From Alistipes sp. (lineage in GTDB: Bacteria; Bacteroidota; Bacteroidia; Bacteroidales; Rikenellaceae): DNA of 58,850 nt. The position numbers and the translations under genes were made by a program. The notes below the pieces were generated by a model, which had not been told where the DNA came from, made no database searches, and saw only the letters and a list, made by a program, of their open reading frames with translations. The stretch is from contig JAFZFP010000012.1 of NCBI GenBank assembly GCA_017555905.1, forward strand, positions 93,698-152,547, in the 5' to 3' direction. Positions 8,284 through 58,850 of the stretch are shown piece by piece; the stretch's first letter is position 1, and every line of letters begins with the position of its first letter.

Positions 8284-10446
8284 CTATTCTTCGCCCTCTT
8301 GTGCTTTGAGAGCCTCCTGCTCCTTACGGCGCTTGGTTTCGAGGGCCTTGAGTTGCTTGGTAGCCTCGACGCTGAGGCTATCTACGAGCTGCTCGTCGCA
8401 ACTGAGGTAGAGTGTGACCTCCGTACCTCTGCCGAGGCGTGAGCCAAGGCTCTGCGACTGCTTATATACACGTGCCTGGCGGCGCGAGATGATATCATCG
8501 ACACTCTGGTCGTAGACTACCTTACCCACGTTGAGACCATTATCCCATAGAGCGCTCTTGGCCTGCTGGAGTGAGAGGCCCACGAGGCGTGGCACGGTGA
8601 CGTAGAACTCATCCTTGCGGTAACTAACCCTGAGCGTAACTCCCGTACCGACGGCTGCAGTGCGCTTTGTCGTAGGGAGAATCTCGCGACCACCCACATA
8701 CTGGCGCAAGACATAGTCCGTAGAGGTCATATCGGGCTCGTAGACCAACTCGTTGATGGTGAGGCCTGCGCGCTCCACCTGGTTGAGGGCCTGACGCAGG
8801 GTCTGCTTAGCCACAAAGGGGATATCGACCATACGGCGGCTATAGGCGTTGATGGTAAGGTATATCTTACGCCCTGGCTTCACCGTAACCTCTCGCACGG
8901 TAGAGGTGCGGGGCAACTGGTCCACCACCGTACCTCCAGGGAGGTCCACATCGAAGATGGAGTCCCTGACGATGATGTTAAGGCTCTCATCATCTGCCAC
9001 TTGGCGAGCCTCGTCGATATTCATACCCACGAAGTTAGGCACCTCGATAGTCCTGCCGTGGCGCGTACCCTGCTTCAAGAAGCCGAGCAACAGCAACAGA
9101 GCCACGATGCCAAGGATGACCATAATGATAAGGTGCGAGATGATGGGGTAACGCTGGTAGAAGCCCACGATGCCCTGCTTGGTCGAGGTACTACTCTTAG
9201 GCTTAGGCGTTGGTTTGGGCGTGGTCTTGGGGCGTGGTGTAGGTGTTGGCTTGGATGTTGGTTTTGGGCCACGCGATATCTCTTTATTATCCATAATTTC
9301 CTCTGTTTCAGTAGTTTCTATCACACTCTCTTCGTCGCTACCCTCCTCCTGTTTTAGGGCATCGTCGTCGTAGCGCTCCACAGGGTTGTAGTGCGAGTCG
9401 CGCTCCACGGGGGTAAAGCCTGCCGAGCGCACCATAGCCTCGAGTTCTGCGACACTCATCGTAGGGCGCTCAACACCTCCCGCCATAGAGTATATCTTGG
9501 TGGTATCGCCTATCGTGCCGTCGATGTCGTCAGCACCAAAGGCCAAGGCCATCTCCGTAGTAGCCTTGCCGTAAGAGACCCAGTAGGCCTTGATATGGGG
9601 TATGTTGTCGAGGAAGAGGCGGCTGAGGGCTATCATCCTCAAGTCCTCCTCCACCGAGCACTCGCCAGCCTCACTGAGGCGGTTACCGCGGCTGTGGTAC
9701 TTCAGCGGGATGAAGGCATCGAAGCCTGGGGACTCATCCTGCAACTTGCGCAGGCGGTCGAGGTGGTCGATACGTTGCTCGATGGTCTCGATATGGCCAT
9801 AGAGCATTGTCGAGTTGGTGGCAATGCCCATATTGTGTGCGGCACGGTGGACAGCGAGCCACTCCTCGGCGCTACACTTTTCGGGACATATCCTCTTTCG
9901 GAGCGAGGCATCAAATATCTCGGCACCTCCACCAGGGATGCACTCCATACCTGCCTCCTGCAGACGGCGCAGACCCTCCACCACGGAGACTCCCTCCTGG
10001 CGTATCATATAGAATATCTCCACCGCCGTATATGCCTTGACAGTGACGTGGGGCAGAGCGCTCTTCACCCTGCGTATCATAGCGCAGTAGGTGTCGAGGT
10101 CGTGCTTGGGGTGGACACCTCCCACAATATGTACCTCGGTGATATCTGCTGTGCGCAATGCCTTGGCGCGCTCCTCAATCTCGTCGAGATTCATATACCA
10201 GGCATCGGCATCGCCCTCCCTACGGCGGAAGGAGCAGAACTCGCAGTTGAAGAGACATATATTCGTCGGTTCGAGGTGTACGTTGCGGTTGTAGTAGACC
10301 TCCTCGCCACTCACCTGACGTTTGCGCTCCGTAGCCAACTCACCCAACAGCCAGAGGGGTGCTTCGTGCCACAGCATAAGGGCGCCCTCGGTGGTGAGAC
10401 GCTCGCCACGGCGTAGGCTCTCGGTAATATCGTGTATCGTAACCAT
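8284..10446 (-). CDS. mqnE: Aminofutalosine synthase (MqnE) fused in frame to a membrane PASTA protein
   Basis: 720 codons without a stop. Residues 1 to about 365 are a complete MqnE-type radical SAM enzyme: cluster cysteines 64, 68 and 71 (NICLFNCEFC), then EVHIVGGVHP and VKAYTAVEIF, as expected for the enzyme that makes aminodeoxyfutalosine for menaquinone. An acidic linker (about 366-384) leads to Met385 (ATG at 9294). From there the sequence is a typical Bacteroidetes PASTA protein: a basic Pro/Thr/Lys region, one membrane span (about 438-460) and three PASTA repeats (about 468-695), then a charged coiled tail. The two parts would need different topologies only in their tails: enzyme in the cytoplasm, PASTA outside. 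The bases before the internal ATG contain GAGGAAATT, so separate translation of the PASTA part is possible. It lies 3 bases after the permease gene. Confidence 0.85.
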   Translation of the reverse strand: MVTIHDITESLRRGERLTTEGALMLWHEAPLWLLGELATERKRQVSGEEVYYNRNVHLEPTNICLFNCEFCSFRRREGDADAWYMNLDEIEERAKALRTADITEVHIVGGVHPKHDLDTYCAMIRRVKSALPHVTVKAYTAVEIFYMIRQEGVSVVEGLRRLQEAGMECIPGGGAEIFDASLRKRICPEKCSAEEWLAVHRAAHNMGIATNSTMLYGHIETIEQRIDHLDRLRKLQDESPGFDAFIPLKYHSRGNRLSEAGECSVEEDLRMIALSRLFLDNIPHIKAYWVSYGKATTEMALAFGADDIDGTIGDTTKIYSMAGGVERPTMSVAELEAMVRSAGFTPVERDSHYNPVERYDDDALKQEEGSDEESVIETTETEEIMDNKEISRGPKPTSKPTPTPRPKTTPKPTPKPKSSTSTKQGIVGFYQRYPIISHLIIMVILGIVALLLLLGFLKQGTRHGRTIEVPNFVGMNIDEARQVADDESLNIIVRDSIFDVDLPGGTVVDQLPRTSTVREVTVKPGRKIYLTINAYSRRMVDIPFVAKQTLRQALNQVERAGLTINELVYEPDMTSTDYVLRQYVGGREILPTTKRTAAVGTGVTLRVSYRKDEFYVTVPRLVGLSLQQAKSALWDNGLNVGKVVYDQSVDDIISRRQARVYKQSQSLGSRLGRGTEVTLYLSCDEQLVDSLSVEATKQLKALETKRRKEQEALKAQEGEE

Positions 10447-11602: not shown

Positions 11603-12733
11603 TTAGAGCCTCTGCGACAACTTCACAACCATCATCTCCTTCCACGCCTTGAAGTCGCCAGCGATGATATGTTTGCGCGCCTCGCCCACGAGCCACAGGT
11701 AGAAGGCTGTGTTGTGCAGTGAGGCTATCTGTGCCGCGAGCATCTCCTTGGCCACGACCAAGTGGTGGAGGTAGGCCTTGGTGTAGGTGGTATCCACGAA
11801 GGCTATGCCATTAGGGTCGATGGGCGAGAAGTCCCTCTCCCACTTCTTGTTGCGTATGTTGATAACTCCCTCAGAGGTAAAGAGTTGGCCATTGCGACCA
11901 TTGCGCGTAGGCATCACGCAGTCGAACATATCGACACCCCTATCTATCGCCTCAAGGATATTCACGGGCGTACCAACACCCATCAGGTAGCGAGGCTTAT
12001 CCTCGGGCAACACGGCATTGCAGACCTCAATCATAGCGTACATCACCTCCGTAGGCTCTCCCACGGCCAAGCCACCAATGGCATAGCCATCGGCATTGTA
12101 CTGCAACACGTTACGTGCCGCAGCCTCCCTGAGGTCGGGGTAGCCAGCGCCCTGCACAATGGGGAAGAGGGCCTGGTAGTGACCCCACTTAGGCTGGGTC
12201 GAGTGGTAGCGGTTGAAGCAGCGCTCCAGCCAGCGCTCGGTGAGTGCCAACGACTTCTTGGCGTAGTCGTAGGGGGCATCGCCTGGAGGACACTCGTCGA
12301 AGGCCATCATAATATCTGCACCTATGGTGCGCTCGGTGTCGATGACACTCTCGGGGGTGAAGAGGTGGCGTGAGCCGTCGATATGGGACTGGAAGTGGCA
12401 CCCCTCCTCCTTGAGTTTTCGGCACGCGGCCAACGAAAAGACCTGGAAGCCACCACTATCCGTAAGCATAGGCTTGTTCCACGACGAGAAGCGGTGGACA
12501 CCCCCAGCCGCCTCGATGATATCCATACCTGGGCGGAGGTATAGGTGGTAGGTGTTGGCTAAGATTATCTGTGCTTTAGCCTCGTGTTCTACGTCGCGGT
12601 GGAAGATACCCTTCATCGCCGCTGCCGTGCCCACGGGCATAAAAATAGGGGTCTCAATAGGGCCGTGGTCGGTCTCCAAGAGGCCCGCGCGCGCCTTACT
12701 CTGGGGCGCAGTATGTTGCAAAGTGTATTTCAT
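11603..12733 (-). CDS. tgt: Queuine tRNA-ribosyltransferase
   Basis: 376 residues, normal for bacterial TGT. Recognisable blocks are ETPIFMPVGTAAAMKG, NTYHLYLRPG, LTDSGGFQVFSL (with the substrate-binding Asp), GGLAVGEP, the nucleophile region GVDMFDCVMPTRNGR, and the Arg-rich segment that follows. The enzyme swaps guanine 34 for a queuosine precursor in tRNAs with GUN anticodons. The usual zinc-site cysteines are not evident: the C-terminal region reads VNIRNKKWERDFSPIDPNG, where many homologues have a CxCxxC motif; this variant is seen in part of the family as far as I recall. First gene of the minus-strand run towards YgiQ; a -7 box lies 18 bases upstream. Confidence 0.93.
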   Translation of the reverse strand: MKYTLQHTAPQSKARAGLLETDHGPIETPIFMPVGTAAAMKGIFHRDVEHEAKAQIILANTYHLYLRPGMDIIEAAGGVHRFSSWNKPMLTDSGGFQVFSLAACRKLKEEGCHFQSHIDGSRHLFTPESVIDTERTIGADIMMAFDECPPGDAPYDYAKKSLALTERWLERCFNRYHSTQPKWGHYQALFPIVQGAGYPDLREAAARNVLQYNADGYAIGGLAVGEPTEVMYAMIEVCNAVLPEDKPRYLMGVGTPVNILEAIDRGVDMFDCVMPTRNGRNGQLFTSEGVINIRNKKWERDFSPIDPNGIAFVDTTYTKAYLHHLVVAKEMLAAQIASLHNTAFYLWLVGEARKHIIAGDFKAWKEMMVVKLSQRL

Positions 12734-12750
12734 AGTATCGGTTTAACGTA

Positions 12751-12758
12751 CAAAGGTA
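12751..12758 (-). promoter_or_regulatory. -7 box for tgt and its operon
   Basis: Reads TACCTTTG on the minus strand, matching TAnnTTTG, 18 bases before the tgt start. No convincing -33 element. Confidence 0.55.
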
Positions 12759-12812
12759 GTAAAAATATTTCATATTTTTCGCTCCTTGGCAGAAATAGTC
12801 TCTAAATTCCCC

Positions 12813-12877
12813 TTGTCACAACCCTTGTCACACCTGTCACATACCCCACCCCCTGTGACAATGTGACAAAGTGACAA
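12813..12877. repeat. Left arm of a 54-bp inverted repeat of TGTCACA/TGTGACA units
   Basis: Core 12825-12877, matched by the reverse complement of 14277-14330 with one mismatch and one single-base gap. Internally it holds TGTCACA units (12814-12820, 12826-12832, 12835-12841), a CCCCACCCCC centre (12843-12852) and reversed units TGTGACA (12854-12860, 12862-12868) and GTGACA (12871-12876). The arm is thus itself a rough dyad with units spaced about one helical turn apart. It ends 10 bases from the stop codon of the ATPase gene. Confidence 0.95.
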
Positions 12878-12887
12878 AGCAATAACA

Positions 12888-14081
12888 TCAGAACGGAGGC
12901 TCGGGGAAGAGGTCGAGAGAGGTACCATACACTGGCTGGGGTGTAGGCTCAGATATAGGTTCAGGTGTAGGTTCAGGCATTGCCTCTGGCATAGATTGTG
13001 GTAGTTGGACAGTAGGTAGACAGACTAAGTTATCCTTAGCGATGAGTACCCCCTTGTCGATAAGGCGGTGGATGCGCATCTGTGCGGTAGAGTGGTTAAG
13101 ACCCCTCTGGCTAACCAACTTCTTGACCAGCACAGCACGCTCGACGACACCACCAAAGGCGTTGGTGAGTATCTCCACCACCTCGTCGCCTACCGAAGTA
13201 CCCGGCGTAGGGAGGTCGCACAACTCTGGGATACCCGTCTCAGAGATGGTAAAAGCGAAGCGTTCGAAGGGCTCATTACGGCAGTACTGAGGCTCCACTA
13301 TCGAACACCCCTCGGCACGGTGTACGTACAACACCGACTCGGCCTTACGCTGGAGCGAGGAGCCGAGATGTCCTCGGGCCTTGTCGCTACCAGGATTGGT
13401 ATGCAACACACAGATAATGTGTGCATTAATCTTGGTACTCAGAGCCATCAGCGCACCTACCAACGCATCGCTCTCCTCGAGGTCGTTAGTATTGCGTTGC
13501 AGGTCGGCAATACCATCTATTACTATTAAATCAAATGGTAATGGATAGTGGTAGATGGTATCGACCATTATCTTGTAGCGCTGGGCAGGCTCTAACTCCC
13601 TGAGCATAAGGGTCGTTAGTCGGGGCTCAGCCACTGCTCCTCCGAGTTTAGCGCCGGTCATCTCGCTGATACGCTCAACCACCTTGCGCACGTGGCGTTC
13701 ACCCTGCTCGGTATCTACCCATAGTACGTTGATATTCATATCTTTATCAACATTCTTGAAGTTGTTGATAAGGCGCGAGGGTATCGCCATTGCCGAGGCT
13801 ACGAGGGCCGAGGTGAGGAAGGTCTTCTTGCTCTTAGCCTCGCCCACGATGGCCGAGATGTTACCGCGCGAACAGACGCAACTACCATCAATAGATATTA
13901 GTGGGTGTTGCTCTGGTAACTCCTTCGTCATATCGACAATGTAGGGGGCAAGATGCTCCTCCATAAGGTCGTATTCGAAGTCTTTGATGGCACGCTCAAG
14001 AGCCTTGCCAGTTAAATCATTGTACGCCTCAGGTAGGGCTACAATCTTACCGTTAGGGTCGGTTACTGTCATCTTCTGCAT
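12888..14081 (-). CDS. RepA-like AAA/RecA-fold ATPase with C-terminal winged helix
   Basis: 397 residues. A RecA-type ATPase core (about 55-285) shows a Walker A variant GEAKSKKT (residues 80-87, Lys where the second Gly is usual), NVLWVDTEQ, Walker B FDLIVIDG (Asp189), and the block VLHTNPGSDKARGHLGSSLQRKAESV (225-250) typical of the RepA/AAA_25 group that includes plasmid and mobile-element helicases. Residues about 296-356 look like a winged helix-turn-helix (STAQMRIHRLIDKGVL), and the tail is Pro/Glu-rich (360-397). It is unrelated to the operons on either side, has its own promoter and leader, and is bracketed by a 54-bp inverted repeat. Codon use resembles the host. It may be a replication or mobilisation protein, or a domesticated regulator; the function is open. 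Confidence 0.85.
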   Translation of the reverse strand: MQKMTVTDPNGKIVALPEAYNDLTGKALERAIKDFEYDLMEEHLAPYIVDMTKELPEQHPLISIDGSCVCSRGNISAIVGEAKSKKTFLTSALVASAMAIPSRLINNFKNVDKDMNINVLWVDTEQGERHVRKVVERISEMTGAKLGGAVAEPRLTTLMLRELEPAQRYKIMVDTIYHYPLPFDLIVIDGIADLQRNTNDLEESDALVGALMALSTKINAHIICVLHTNPGSDKARGHLGSSLQRKAESVLYVHRAEGCSIVEPQYCRNEPFERFAFTISETGIPELCDLPTPGTSVGDEVVEILTNAFGGVVERAVLVKKLVSQRGLNHSTAQMRIHRLIDKGVLIAKDNLVCLPTVQLPQSMPEAMPEPTPEPISEPTPQPVYGTSLDLFPEPPF

Positions 14082-14110
14082 AGTCGTAAAATATTAAATG
14101 ATTATCTGAG

Positions 14111-14126
14111 TATGTCTATAGACATA
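14111..14126. promoter_or_regulatory. Perfect 16-bp palindrome in the ATPase gene leader
   Basis: TATGTCTATAGACATA reads the same on both strands. It lies 30 bases before the ATPase start, inside the predicted 5' leader, where it could be an operator or an RNA hairpin. Confidence 0.6.
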
Positions 14127-14129
14127 AGG

Positions 14130-14173
14130 CGTATAGCGTGTGCAGGTCGCACGAACGAGAGGTCGGCTATACG
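14130..14173 (-). promoter_or_regulatory. Predicted structured leader RNA of the ATPase gene
   Basis: CGTATAGC (14130-14137) and GCTATACG (14166-14173) are exact reverse complements and can close a stem; a smaller GTGC/GCAC hairpin can form inside. This is between the predicted start of transcription and the gene. Confidence 0.45.
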
Positions 14174-14189
14174 GCTTGATTCGACGGTG

Positions 14190-14220
14190 CAAATATACAA
14201 CAGAAAAACGGGCTTGTCAA
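14190..14220 (-). promoter_or_regulatory. Promoter of the RepA-like ATPase gene
   Basis: Minus strand: TTG at 14220-14218, 20-base spacer, then TATATTTG at 14197-14190. This is a good Bacteroidetes promoter and gives a leader of about 100 bases. Confidence 0.65.
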
Positions 14221-14276
14221 GTATTTTAACAATTATTTTTACTCTTGGGTTAAATTTTTTACTGCGCCTAATCACG

Positions 14277-14330
14277 TTGTCACTTTGTCACATTGTCACA
14301 GGGGGTGGGGTGTGTGACACGGTGTGACAA
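14277..14330. repeat. Right arm of the 54-bp inverted repeat
   Basis: Reverse complement of 12825-12877 apart from one mismatch and one extra base. It lies upstream of the ATPase promoter and about 100 bases before the divergent glycosyltransferase gene. The 347-base gap 14082-14428 therefore holds, in order: palindrome, structured leader, ATPase promoter, this repeat, a small GCAAGGCATTGC-type repeat (14341-14352) and the promoter of the next gene. Confidence 0.95.
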
Positions 14331-14395
14331 ACAAGTGAGGGCAAGGCATTGCAACGCCCTGCACAAAAAAACTATGAAATCTCAAAAAAATTTAT

Positions 14396-14403
14396 TACCT
14401 TTG
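14396..14403 (+). promoter_or_regulatory. -7 box for the glycosyltransferase operon
   Basis: TACCTTTG matches TAnnTTTG, 25 bases before the GTG start. No clear -33 element. Confidence 0.5.
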
Positions 14404-14428
14404 TCAAGATATATATAACATAACGACA

Positions 14429-15595
14429 GTGACACACTTTTTTAGCAACATATTAGACCATTATGCGTGGCAGGGATTGGCCCTCAGTGGCGTGGTTATC
14501 ATCCTCTTCTTCACGCAGTTATACTACTACGCAATAGCCTACTACCGCATCTACAGTTTCCGTCTCCTGCGCCAGCGCAAGCGCAAGCGTGCCAACCCCG
14601 CAGTCTCGGTGATTGTGGTCGTCAGGGGCGAGAACGAGCAATTCCTCTCGAAAGAGCTCCCCACACTGCTCCACCAGACATACTCCTCATTCGAGGTGGT
14701 AGTGGTATATGTGGGTAGCGACATCGAGTACTACGACCAGTTGCAGAGCCTCCGCAACCACTTCTCCTATATGCGCCTTACGAAGGTGGGTGGCCACAAC
14801 CACTTCTTCATAACCACCAAGCAGGCACTCAACATAGGCATCAAGTCGGCACAGTACGACCACCTACTCTTCACCACTCCAGGCACTATGCCCCGCACGG
14901 AGCGCTGGGTGGAGTATATGGCTAAGGGCTTTGAGCGTGGCTCTATCGTCGTGGGTAGCGCCGTACCCGACTTCCAGCGCAAGGGCCTTAGGCAGTACCT
15001 TATGATGATGACCGAGTTCCACAATATGCGCAACGCCATGTCGCGCGCCGTGGTGGATGAACTCTACTACGCCCCACAGAGCAACTACGGCTTCACCAAG
15101 GAGTTGTACTACTCGACCCGAGGATATAACCACCTCGGCATCGACATCGGCGACAACGACCTCTACATCCAAGACCTCGTGCGCCTAAACCCCAAGAATA
15201 TCGCTGTGGTACTCTCACCCCACTCCGTCGTAGAGGAGCGACGCTCGGATGTGTGGAGCGAGTGGATGGAGCATACGCGCTACTACGGCTCGACATACAA
15301 CGACTACCCCCTCGCAGTGCGCACCTTCATACGCCGTGAACGCAACAGCCGACTCCTCTTCCTCGGGGCTACGTTGGTGGCACTGGTGGTCCTCCCCCTC
15401 GAACTCAAGATTGGGGCCTTGGCGCTCCTCTTGTTGCGCTACCTCGCAGTGGTATGGAGTAGCCACCGCACAGCCCGCAAACTCGGCTTTAAGGATGTAG
15501 CCCTCAAATACTGGATCTACGACCTCGCAGGGCCCGTGATAGAGAAGATAATAAGGAGCAAGGAGAGTAAAAACACACCACGTATATGGACATAG
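14429..15595 (+). CDS. Membrane-associated family 2 glycosyltransferase
   Basis: 388 residues read from a GTG start, the only plausible start before the first conserved block and just behind the promoter box. An N-terminal membrane span (about 14-36) precedes a GT2 GT-A domain: PAVSVIVVVRGENEQFLSKELPTLLHQTY (about 58-87), then LTKVGGHNHFFITTKQALNIGIKSAQYDHLLF in place of the usual DxD segment, and two or more spans near the C-terminus (about 308-345). It is probably a polysaccharide or lipid-linked sugar transferase at the inner membrane; donor and acceptor are unknown. The usual DxD metal motif is replaced by TTPGTMP, which is odd. The stop overlaps the start of the sigma-factor gene by 10 bases, so the two are translationally coupled. 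Confidence 0.85.
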   Translation: MTHFFSNILDHYAWQGLALSGVVIILFFTQLYYYAIAYYRIYSFRLLRQRKRKRANPAVSVIVVVRGENEQFLSKELPTLLHQTYSSFEVVVVYVGSDIEYYDQLQSLRNHFSYMRLTKVGGHNHFFITTKQALNIGIKSAQYDHLLFTTPGTMPRTERWVEYMAKGFERGSIVVGSAVPDFQRKGLRQYLMMMTEFHNMRNAMSRAVVDELYYAPQSNYGFTKELYYSTRGYNHLGIDIGDNDLYIQDLVRLNPKNIAVVLSPHSVVEERRSDVWSEWMEHTRYYGSTYNDYPLAVRTFIRRERNSRLLFLGATLVALVVLPLELKIGALALLLLRYLAVVWSSHRTARKLGFKDVALKYWIYDLAGPVIEKIIRSKESKNTPRIWT

Positions 15596-33463: not shown

Positions 33464-33490
33464 TGTGACAATTTGTCACTTTGTGACACC
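33464..33490. promoter_or_regulatory. TGTGACA/TGTCACA motif cluster upstream of groES
   Basis: GTGACAA (33465-33471) and TTGTCAC (33473-33479) form a dyad with one central base, followed by TTTGTGACA (33480-33488). These are the same units that make up the inverted repeat around the RepA-like ATPase gene. A possible -33 TTTG (33480-33483) lies inside it, with TGGCTTTG (33506-33513) as a near-consensus -7 box. Confidence 0.5.
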
Positions 33491-58772: not shown

Positions 58773-58850
58773 AAGAGGCGGCTACCTACTCTCCCACCTA
58801 AATAGGCAGTACCATCGGCGTAAGTGAGCTTAACTTCTCTGTTCGGAATG
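58773..58850 (-). rRNA. rrf: 5S ribosomal RNA, 3' part
   Basis: On the minus strand the edge of the window enters CATTCCGAACAGAGAAGTTAAG, then TACGCCGATGGTACTGC and GGGAGAGTAGGTAGCCGCC, the conserved 5S loop B to 3' end sequence. The 5' part of the 5S gene and presumably the 23S and 16S genes lie beyond the window. The 3' boundary is accurate within a few bases. Confidence 0.95.

Follow-up and report, generated by a model that had tools for sequence, protein, structure and literature searches.

What kind of genetic element consists of one ATPase gene set between two long palindromic repeats? The case treated here lies in a 58,850-nucleotide stretch of contig JAFZFP010000012.1 (the window), from the draft genome (1.77 Mb, 29 contigs, 87% complete) of an Alistipes-like bacterium from gut or rumen, in which a gene for a RepA-like ATPase is bracketed by inverted arms of TGTCAC and GTGACA units. 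We consider it fairly probable that this is a minimal selfish unit, made of a RepA-type ATPase with a winged helix and of the flanking palindromic arrays that the protein reads. By genome comparison we show a recurring build, matched species-specific arms, covariation between repeat and recognition helix, and absence of the gene from the same site in relatives; the same comparisons show an exchange between the members of one species pair, an inversion in another, dispersed arms and purifying selection. Arm reading and mobility are well supported, and the copying mechanism is one that we infer.

The unit itself is compact:

12813..12877, plus strand: left arm (3′ of the gene), a palindromic array of TGTCAC and GTGACA units with the centre ACCCCACCCCC.
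12888..14081, minus strand: gene for the RepA-like ATPase (397 aa, C-terminal winged helix), the sole gene of the unit.
14082..14187, minus strand: 5′ untranslated leader, predicted to be folded (z -2.6).
14188..14221, minus strand: promoter-like CTTGACA-N14-TTGTATATTTGCA, a consensus common to other units and to unrelated operons.
14277..14332, plus strand: right arm (5′ of the gene), the inverse of the left arm.

An earlier sequence-only reading of this DNA had described a near-perfect inverted repeat around a single gene with its own promoter; the repeat and the single gene are borne out, and the gene is preceded by a promoter-like sequence. The inverted repeat proper pairs 12825-12877 with the reverse complement of 14277-14330 (53 and 54 bp), the two differing over 54 columns by a single mismatch and a single gap (96.3% identity, E 3e-20); a repeat search returned 12835-12877 and 14277-14319 (43 nt, 98% complementarity), and the longest exact core shared by the arms runs to 35 nt, where 300 shuffles of the flanks gave no more than 11 nt. 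The left start given earlier, 12825, holds for the inverted repeat, and the left array begins 12 bp before it, at 12813. Each arm is, as had been claimed, a dyad of units around a C-rich centre (CCCCACCCCC), with three TGTCAC and three GTGACA units in the left arm and three and two in the right. The proposed spacing of about one helical turn needs adjustment: units lie 8 bp apart on the gene side and 9-12 bp apart on the outer side, hence mostly slightly under one turn. The absence of an evident target-site duplication at the window copy also stands, given that the outer 60-bp flanks share a direct match of at most 5 nt, no better than shuffles. The arm pair forms terminal inverted repeats like those of insertion sequences, and places short repeats beside a Rep-type gene as in iteron replicons. 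A weaker second inverted pair (12750-12777 and 14377-14404), just ahead of two divergent host genes, looks by eye like the promoters of those genes.

The protein is divided as follows:

13212..13913, minus strand: RecA-fold ATPase domain, residues 57-290 (Pfam, predicted structure, VIA).
13020..13184, minus strand: winged helix, residues 300-354 (predicted structure), in which residues 328, 330 and 331 covary with the repeat.
12891..13010, minus strand: proline-rich, low-confidence tail ending in EPPF (predicted structure).

Pfam and the predicted structure agree on the RecA-type ATPase and winged helix recognised earlier, and on this model the window protein combines a RecA-fold ATPase domain of RepA/DnaB type with a winged helix towards the C-terminus, followed by a disordered tail. 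AAA_25 scores 39.3 bits against a curated cut-off of 27 and was the only Pfam family up to E 1, with no transposase or other DNA-cutting domain; all NCBIfam matches fell under cut-off, and the PDB gave no sequence match. RSF1010 RepA is the best VIA match of the predicted fold, tied with RadA, T7 gp4 and DnaB. The stretch GEAKSKKT in the ATPase domain is presumably an unusual Walker-A-like motif. An acidic-x-PF C-terminus occurs in 10 of 25 clade proteins, including that of the window; in G040, G022, G011 and G027 the frame runs through repeat-coded stretches to this tip, and in G035 it does not get there. The C-terminal tip of the single-stranded DNA-binding protein (SSB) is given as DDDIPF in PMC5872125, and by analogy the tip may be a hint that host replication or repair proteins are recruited. 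As a defence system the protein was rejected, since PADLOC had no match for it or for L045 and only a weak mads_8 match for L043; among viral contigs two loci matched, in the proline-rich tail alone, and were set aside.

The same build recurs across relatives. A homologue at E 1e-5 was found in 33 of 101 genomes, 28 of these among the 61 of the same genus (own genome included). Within the 28, the full-length type is present in 25 (31 copies), G013 and G060 carry a distant type, and G029 has just two short gene fragments (L106 and L107, within residues 38-130) that may be copies in decay. Of 37 loci, 27 have paired repeats at the gene; all of these are among the 30 clade loci, and none of the 7 distant relatives has them. 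In this set L041 and L098 name the same G025 contig, and other rows may repeat too; at the three remaining clade loci a contig end lies 143-321 bp from the match. The seven named relative loci come from four Alistipes sp. metagenome-assembled genomes (MAGs), one Rikenellaceae MAG, Alistipes muris (residues 44-371 at 39%, no paired repeats) and one MAG labelled Clostridia. Order-wide, three of 393 genomes, a set drawn evenly and with few members of this genus, matched at E 1e-60, and the two besides the window genome match residues 44-288 only. As far as searched, the armed gene type looks confined to this genus.

A stricter scan, with a search span and score chosen by us, found a single 6-mer arrayed as palindromes on both sides of 22 of 25 scorable clade loci (26 scanned, L125 not scorable). 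None of 3 distant relatives scored, and of 167 control genes just 1 did, an open reading frame inside a gene-less unit. The 6-mer was the arm unit in 20 cases and a neighbouring repeat in two (L099, L126). Zero scores fell to L127, L130 and L101; alignment gives paired repeats at the first two (L016, L019), and the arm 5′ of the gene was detected at L101. Across clade units the 5′ arm precedes the promoter-like sequence and the 3′ arm is found either at the stop codon or in the gene tail, where it is translated as, for example, VSDVSD or VTPVTP. The neighbouring genes mostly differ between loci. Outside the arms, further local repeats (AAAGGGT, TAGGGAG and GGGCGCTTCGCTT types; for example at L115, L099, L126 and L127) are often inverted around the unit, and they also fill one gene-less arm pair. 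At L153 (G011:C73:30711) what looks by eye like an ATPase-like gene has the same promoter and adjoins GGGCGCTTCGCTT-type repeats; it is perhaps a second family of similar build.

Homology beyond the genus raises the question of whether the unit is a relic or domesticated replication module, ATPase plus iterons, of a larger plasmid or integrative element. Relatives of the ATPase domain occur on 19 plasmid and 17 phage records at 30-38% identity, none covering 80% of the query, iterons adjoining a Rep gene are plasmid anatomy, and the fragments in G029 and a single stop in 4 of 31 full-length copies would fit decay. Against a relic stand the 27 of 31 copies without an internal stop, purifying selection on the gene in three diverged pairs (dN/dS 0.18-0.24), an identical one-gene build next to mostly different neighbours, and near-identical copies in a species pair whose flanking gene has diverged. 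We regard this origin as quite unlikely.

The repeat unit varies by species (TGTCACA, CGCTCACA, AGTAACA, CGTAACA, CGTTACA, GATTACA, CCGAACA, TTTAACA, GTGATTC and others), and both arms of any one locus carry a matching unit. The sequence-only reading had held that arms diverging freely would tell against binding; they do vary between species, yet both arms of a locus change together. The recognition helix is predicted to span residues 330-342, and the strongest covariation of the winged helix with the repeat falls at residues 331 (partial r 0.32, p 0.001), 328 (p 0.008) and 330 (p 0.010), that at 331 exceeding all 172 variable positions of the ATPase domain. The test covered 59 winged-helix positions in 22 of 26 units with ATPase distance held constant, after removal of G005 (a near copy of G057), of G022, whose upstream arm falls past the end of its contig, and of G004 and G049, whose cores could not be aligned to the GTNAC frame. 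The five TGTCACA units have Ser or Thr at 331 and His or Arg at 330, and the three CCGAACA units have Asp at 331. Since the repeat differs between species, matches within a locus and varies together with the first residues of the recognition helix, each protein probably reads the arms that flank it, as had been suggested of the winged helix.

The genus-wide distribution of arms points the same way. A TGTCACA arm was found in 4 of 5 genomes with a known TGTCACA-type gene versus 2 of 56 others (Fisher p 1.4e-4, 61 genus genomes), these two being a solo arm in G041 and a weak 30-nt match in G028; the fifth TGTCACA-type genome, G025, went undetected at this threshold. The association is partly circular through the units' own arms. 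Every one of the four, however, also carries an arm or more at a distance from the gene, and leaving out the own arms does not alter the counts. G090, a member of the order outside the family, gave two weak matches. Where a genome holds two copies with assignable cores (n = 5), their codes are never the same, with 2-4 of 7 bases changed, and by chance, too, most copy pairs would differ (216 of 231). In G025 the two copies are more closely related to each other than to any other copy in the comparison; their codes and helix residues are nonetheless different.

Arms also occur away from the gene; counting all arms, the four genomes searched have 6 to about 11 each. The genome-wide search proposed earlier returned four arms in the window genome besides the unit's own, three of them 236-364 bp from a contig end and the fourth 753 bp. 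The eight arms of G020 fall into three inverted clusters, one enclosing the gene and two gene-less ones keeping the promoter end; the two gene-less interiors have in common just arm ends, promoter and short motifs. G035 has a pair at one ATPase copy, a gene-less pair at tgt and two solo arms. The gene-less inverted doublets of G020 and G035, in few copies, recall those of the REPIN/RAYT systems discussed below. G015 carries arms at the gene, one solo arm and one pair around two other genes; at this last pair (L088 / L112, G015:C11:202357-204047) the place of the ATPase is taken by what we take to be a LuxR-type regulator and a hemerythrin-like gene, either captured or enclosed by the chance spacing of two solo arms. 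Within the window, a solitary degenerate mini-arm (TGTGACA, TTGTCAC, TTGTGACA) lies at 33464-33488, between what we take to be a RarA-like ATPase gene and a groEL region.

Such dispersal could mean that the arms are the ends of a family like miniature inverted-repeat transposable elements (MITEs) or repetitive extragenic palindromic (REP) sequences, moved by a transposase encoded elsewhere, with the ATPase as cargo. The solo arms and gene-less pairs, the G015 pair around two other genes, the arm in G041, where no family gene was found, and the resemblance of the arms to terminal inverted repeats all favour it. Against it stand the paired repeats at every gene-found clade locus not cut by a contig end (loci found via the gene cannot reveal what else arms carry), a repeat that covaries with the protein's own recognition helix, and dispersed TGTCACA arms that accompany TGTCACA-type genes. 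We judge this explanation unlikely.

Whether the unit moves can be read from its site in relatives. The host genes on either side, both outside the unit, are:

11603..12733, minus strand: tgt (queuine tRNA-ribosyltransferase; Pfam), the anchor for the empty site.
14429..15595, plus strand: glycosyltransferase family 2 (Pfam).

The empty site that the sequence-only reading had proposed to look for is found: none of 29 relatives has the ATPase gene within 1.5 kb of tgt. A glycosyltransferase homologue lies within 1.5 kb of tgt in 20 of the 29, with an interval of 65-290 bp in 18 of these; for the other nine relatives the interval is undefined. The two long intervals are that of G035 (955 bp), which holds the gene-less inverted arm pair and is the sole one with TGTCAC arrays, and that of G034 (L064; 920 bp), with other repeats and no TGTCAC. 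At shared sites, units and flanking genes have diverged to different degrees. Between G057 and G005, at one site, the synonymous divergence (dS) is 0.01 for the unit and 0.40 for a flanking gene; between G040 and G011, at one site, the unit has a dS of 1.41 and different repeats, and four flanking genes have 0.26-0.63; between G051 and G017, whose flanks share 88-91% identity, the unit has opposite orientations with respect to those flanks (dS 0.62 versus 0.34-0.41). Units of the same build thus appear to have moved between species, but for the most part they seem to remain in their lineage, with a move now and then. The earlier notion of a mobile or replicating element gains support for mobility from the empty site, the exchange and the inversion; replication is the part that we infer.

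These comparisons also bear on a host regulator of itself and a few dispersed operators, for which the arms would be operator arrays. One arm does lie ahead of the promoter, and there are solo arms elsewhere than at the unit, of which several look intergenic by eye. The other arm, however, is at or within the 3′ end of the gene, presence is patchy (full-length type in 25 of 61 genus genomes), the gene is missing from the window site in 29 relatives, units are replaced or inverted at shared sites, and a repressor needs no helicase-fold ATPase. We hold a regulator to be very improbable.

Several observations weigh against a selfish unit that reads its own arms. Repeat cores were assigned by eye, for the winged helix as a whole covariation does not reach significance (r 0.10, p 0.15; partial 0.14, p 0.065), and the signal is limited to three positions, the best of which narrowly fails Bonferroni correction (p 0.001 over 59 positions). 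At G057 the arms align best as direct, not inverted, repeats (L023). The interior of the gene-less G035 pair consists of repeats found around ATPase units elsewhere in that genome, with no shortened gene, and thus did not necessarily arise by deletion. The evidence for movement comes from genome comparisons, in which intergenic DNA is too diverged to give exact unit ends. The high-identity block of G057 and G005 reaches about 100 bp past the arm, so ordinary recombination may have carried it, and the dN/dS of 0.85 for this pair comes from very few changes. ATPase and host tgt distances correlate (Spearman 0.64, 100 copy pairs), so much of the units' history may be residence in lineages. The acidic-x-PF tip is absent from 15 of 25 clade proteins, and no host SSB matched in the 87%-complete genome, which leaves the idea of SSB mimicry to the tip sequence itself.

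For a selfish unit of this kind, a possible course of events can be outlined. The protein would bind both arms, and a RepA-like ring would assemble on DNA opened there. Host replication or repair proteins might then be drawn in, in part of the family via the SSB-like C-terminal tip, and the bracketed stretch, or one arm alone, could be over-copied and re-enter intergenic sites via host recombination. No endonuclease, transposase or integrase of its own was recognised in the units; the surroundings of solo arms were not searched for a transposase. More tentatively, with somewhat less than even odds in our estimate, the units may represent a class of transposase-free mobile DNA: a motor that brackets itself, is locally re-replicated from its arms and lands by host recombination, with address and recognition helix drifting jointly and co-resident codes diverging as in plasmid incompatibility. 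If true, a helicase-type ATPase without a nuclease or transposase can make DNA mobile or self-maintaining. The family would also be a natural set of matched protein-DNA pairs, with a short code, read by few winged-helix residues, that changed many times within one genus and is testable in vitro.

Two further candidates were rejected. A structured RNA behind the gene-less units was dropped, as no Rfam family reached gathering score in 10 arm- or tgt-bearing loci (three sub-threshold matches, E 0.25-0.56); in the window, a tRNA and 5S rRNA alone did so, and folding of the two G020 gene-less interiors gave z -2.6 and -1.9 (part of one, -0.9). The promoter was discarded as a search tag, given that CTTGACA-N-TTGTATATTTGCA occurs in 10 of 61 genomes and also on other operons, and so is not unit-specific. 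The same consensus with a long leader and an unknown gene appears in five genomes (L150, G000:C25:58577; L148; L142; L145; L154), with upstream coding sequence that is similar by eye. Elsewhere in the window, a 720-aa open frame (8284-10446, minus strand) joins a radical-SAM/CofH_C enzyme, which we assume to be of menaquinone-pathway type, to PASTA domains, as either an unusual fusion or a lost stop codon. The contig ends in a 5S rRNA gene (58773-58850), and the break in the assembly there is probably due to an rRNA operon.

How does the unit compare with known systems? That none was known to the sequence-only reading agrees with our search, which found no description of such a unit in the open-access literature, among the matches listed; subscription papers and preprints were outside its scope. 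REPINs (REP doublets) and RAYTs (REP-associated tyrosine transposases), as described in PMC3116915, likewise combine a gene with associated palindromes, gene-less inverted doublets and apparent persistence in lineages. Unlike a RAYT (PMC3116915), the unit protein is a RecA-fold ATPase whose predicted structure, RecA fold plus winged helix, contains no tyrosine transposase; and in contrast to REPINs the repeat is an iteron array that changes between species, with few arms per genome. MITEs and their parent insertion sequences share terminal inverted repeats and short gene-less derivatives, but here no transposase is recognised, and the window copy shows no target-site duplication. A homologous ATPase domain is found in AAA_25 ATPases of Bacteroidales plasmids and phages; unlike the armed clade, the distant relatives on genome contigs lack paired repeats. 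RSF1010/IncQ RepA is alike in its ATPase fold and in the short repeated units beside the gene. The iterons of RSF1010 are read by a separate winged-helix initiator, RepC, whereas here the helicase-like ATPase and winged helix are fused in one protein, a lone gene without a primase gene beside it is enclosed by repeats that make up two palindromic arms, and the unit copies read adjoin chromosomal-type genes. To our knowledge, there is no known kind of element in which mobile iteron palindromes flank the gene of a helicase-type ATPase.
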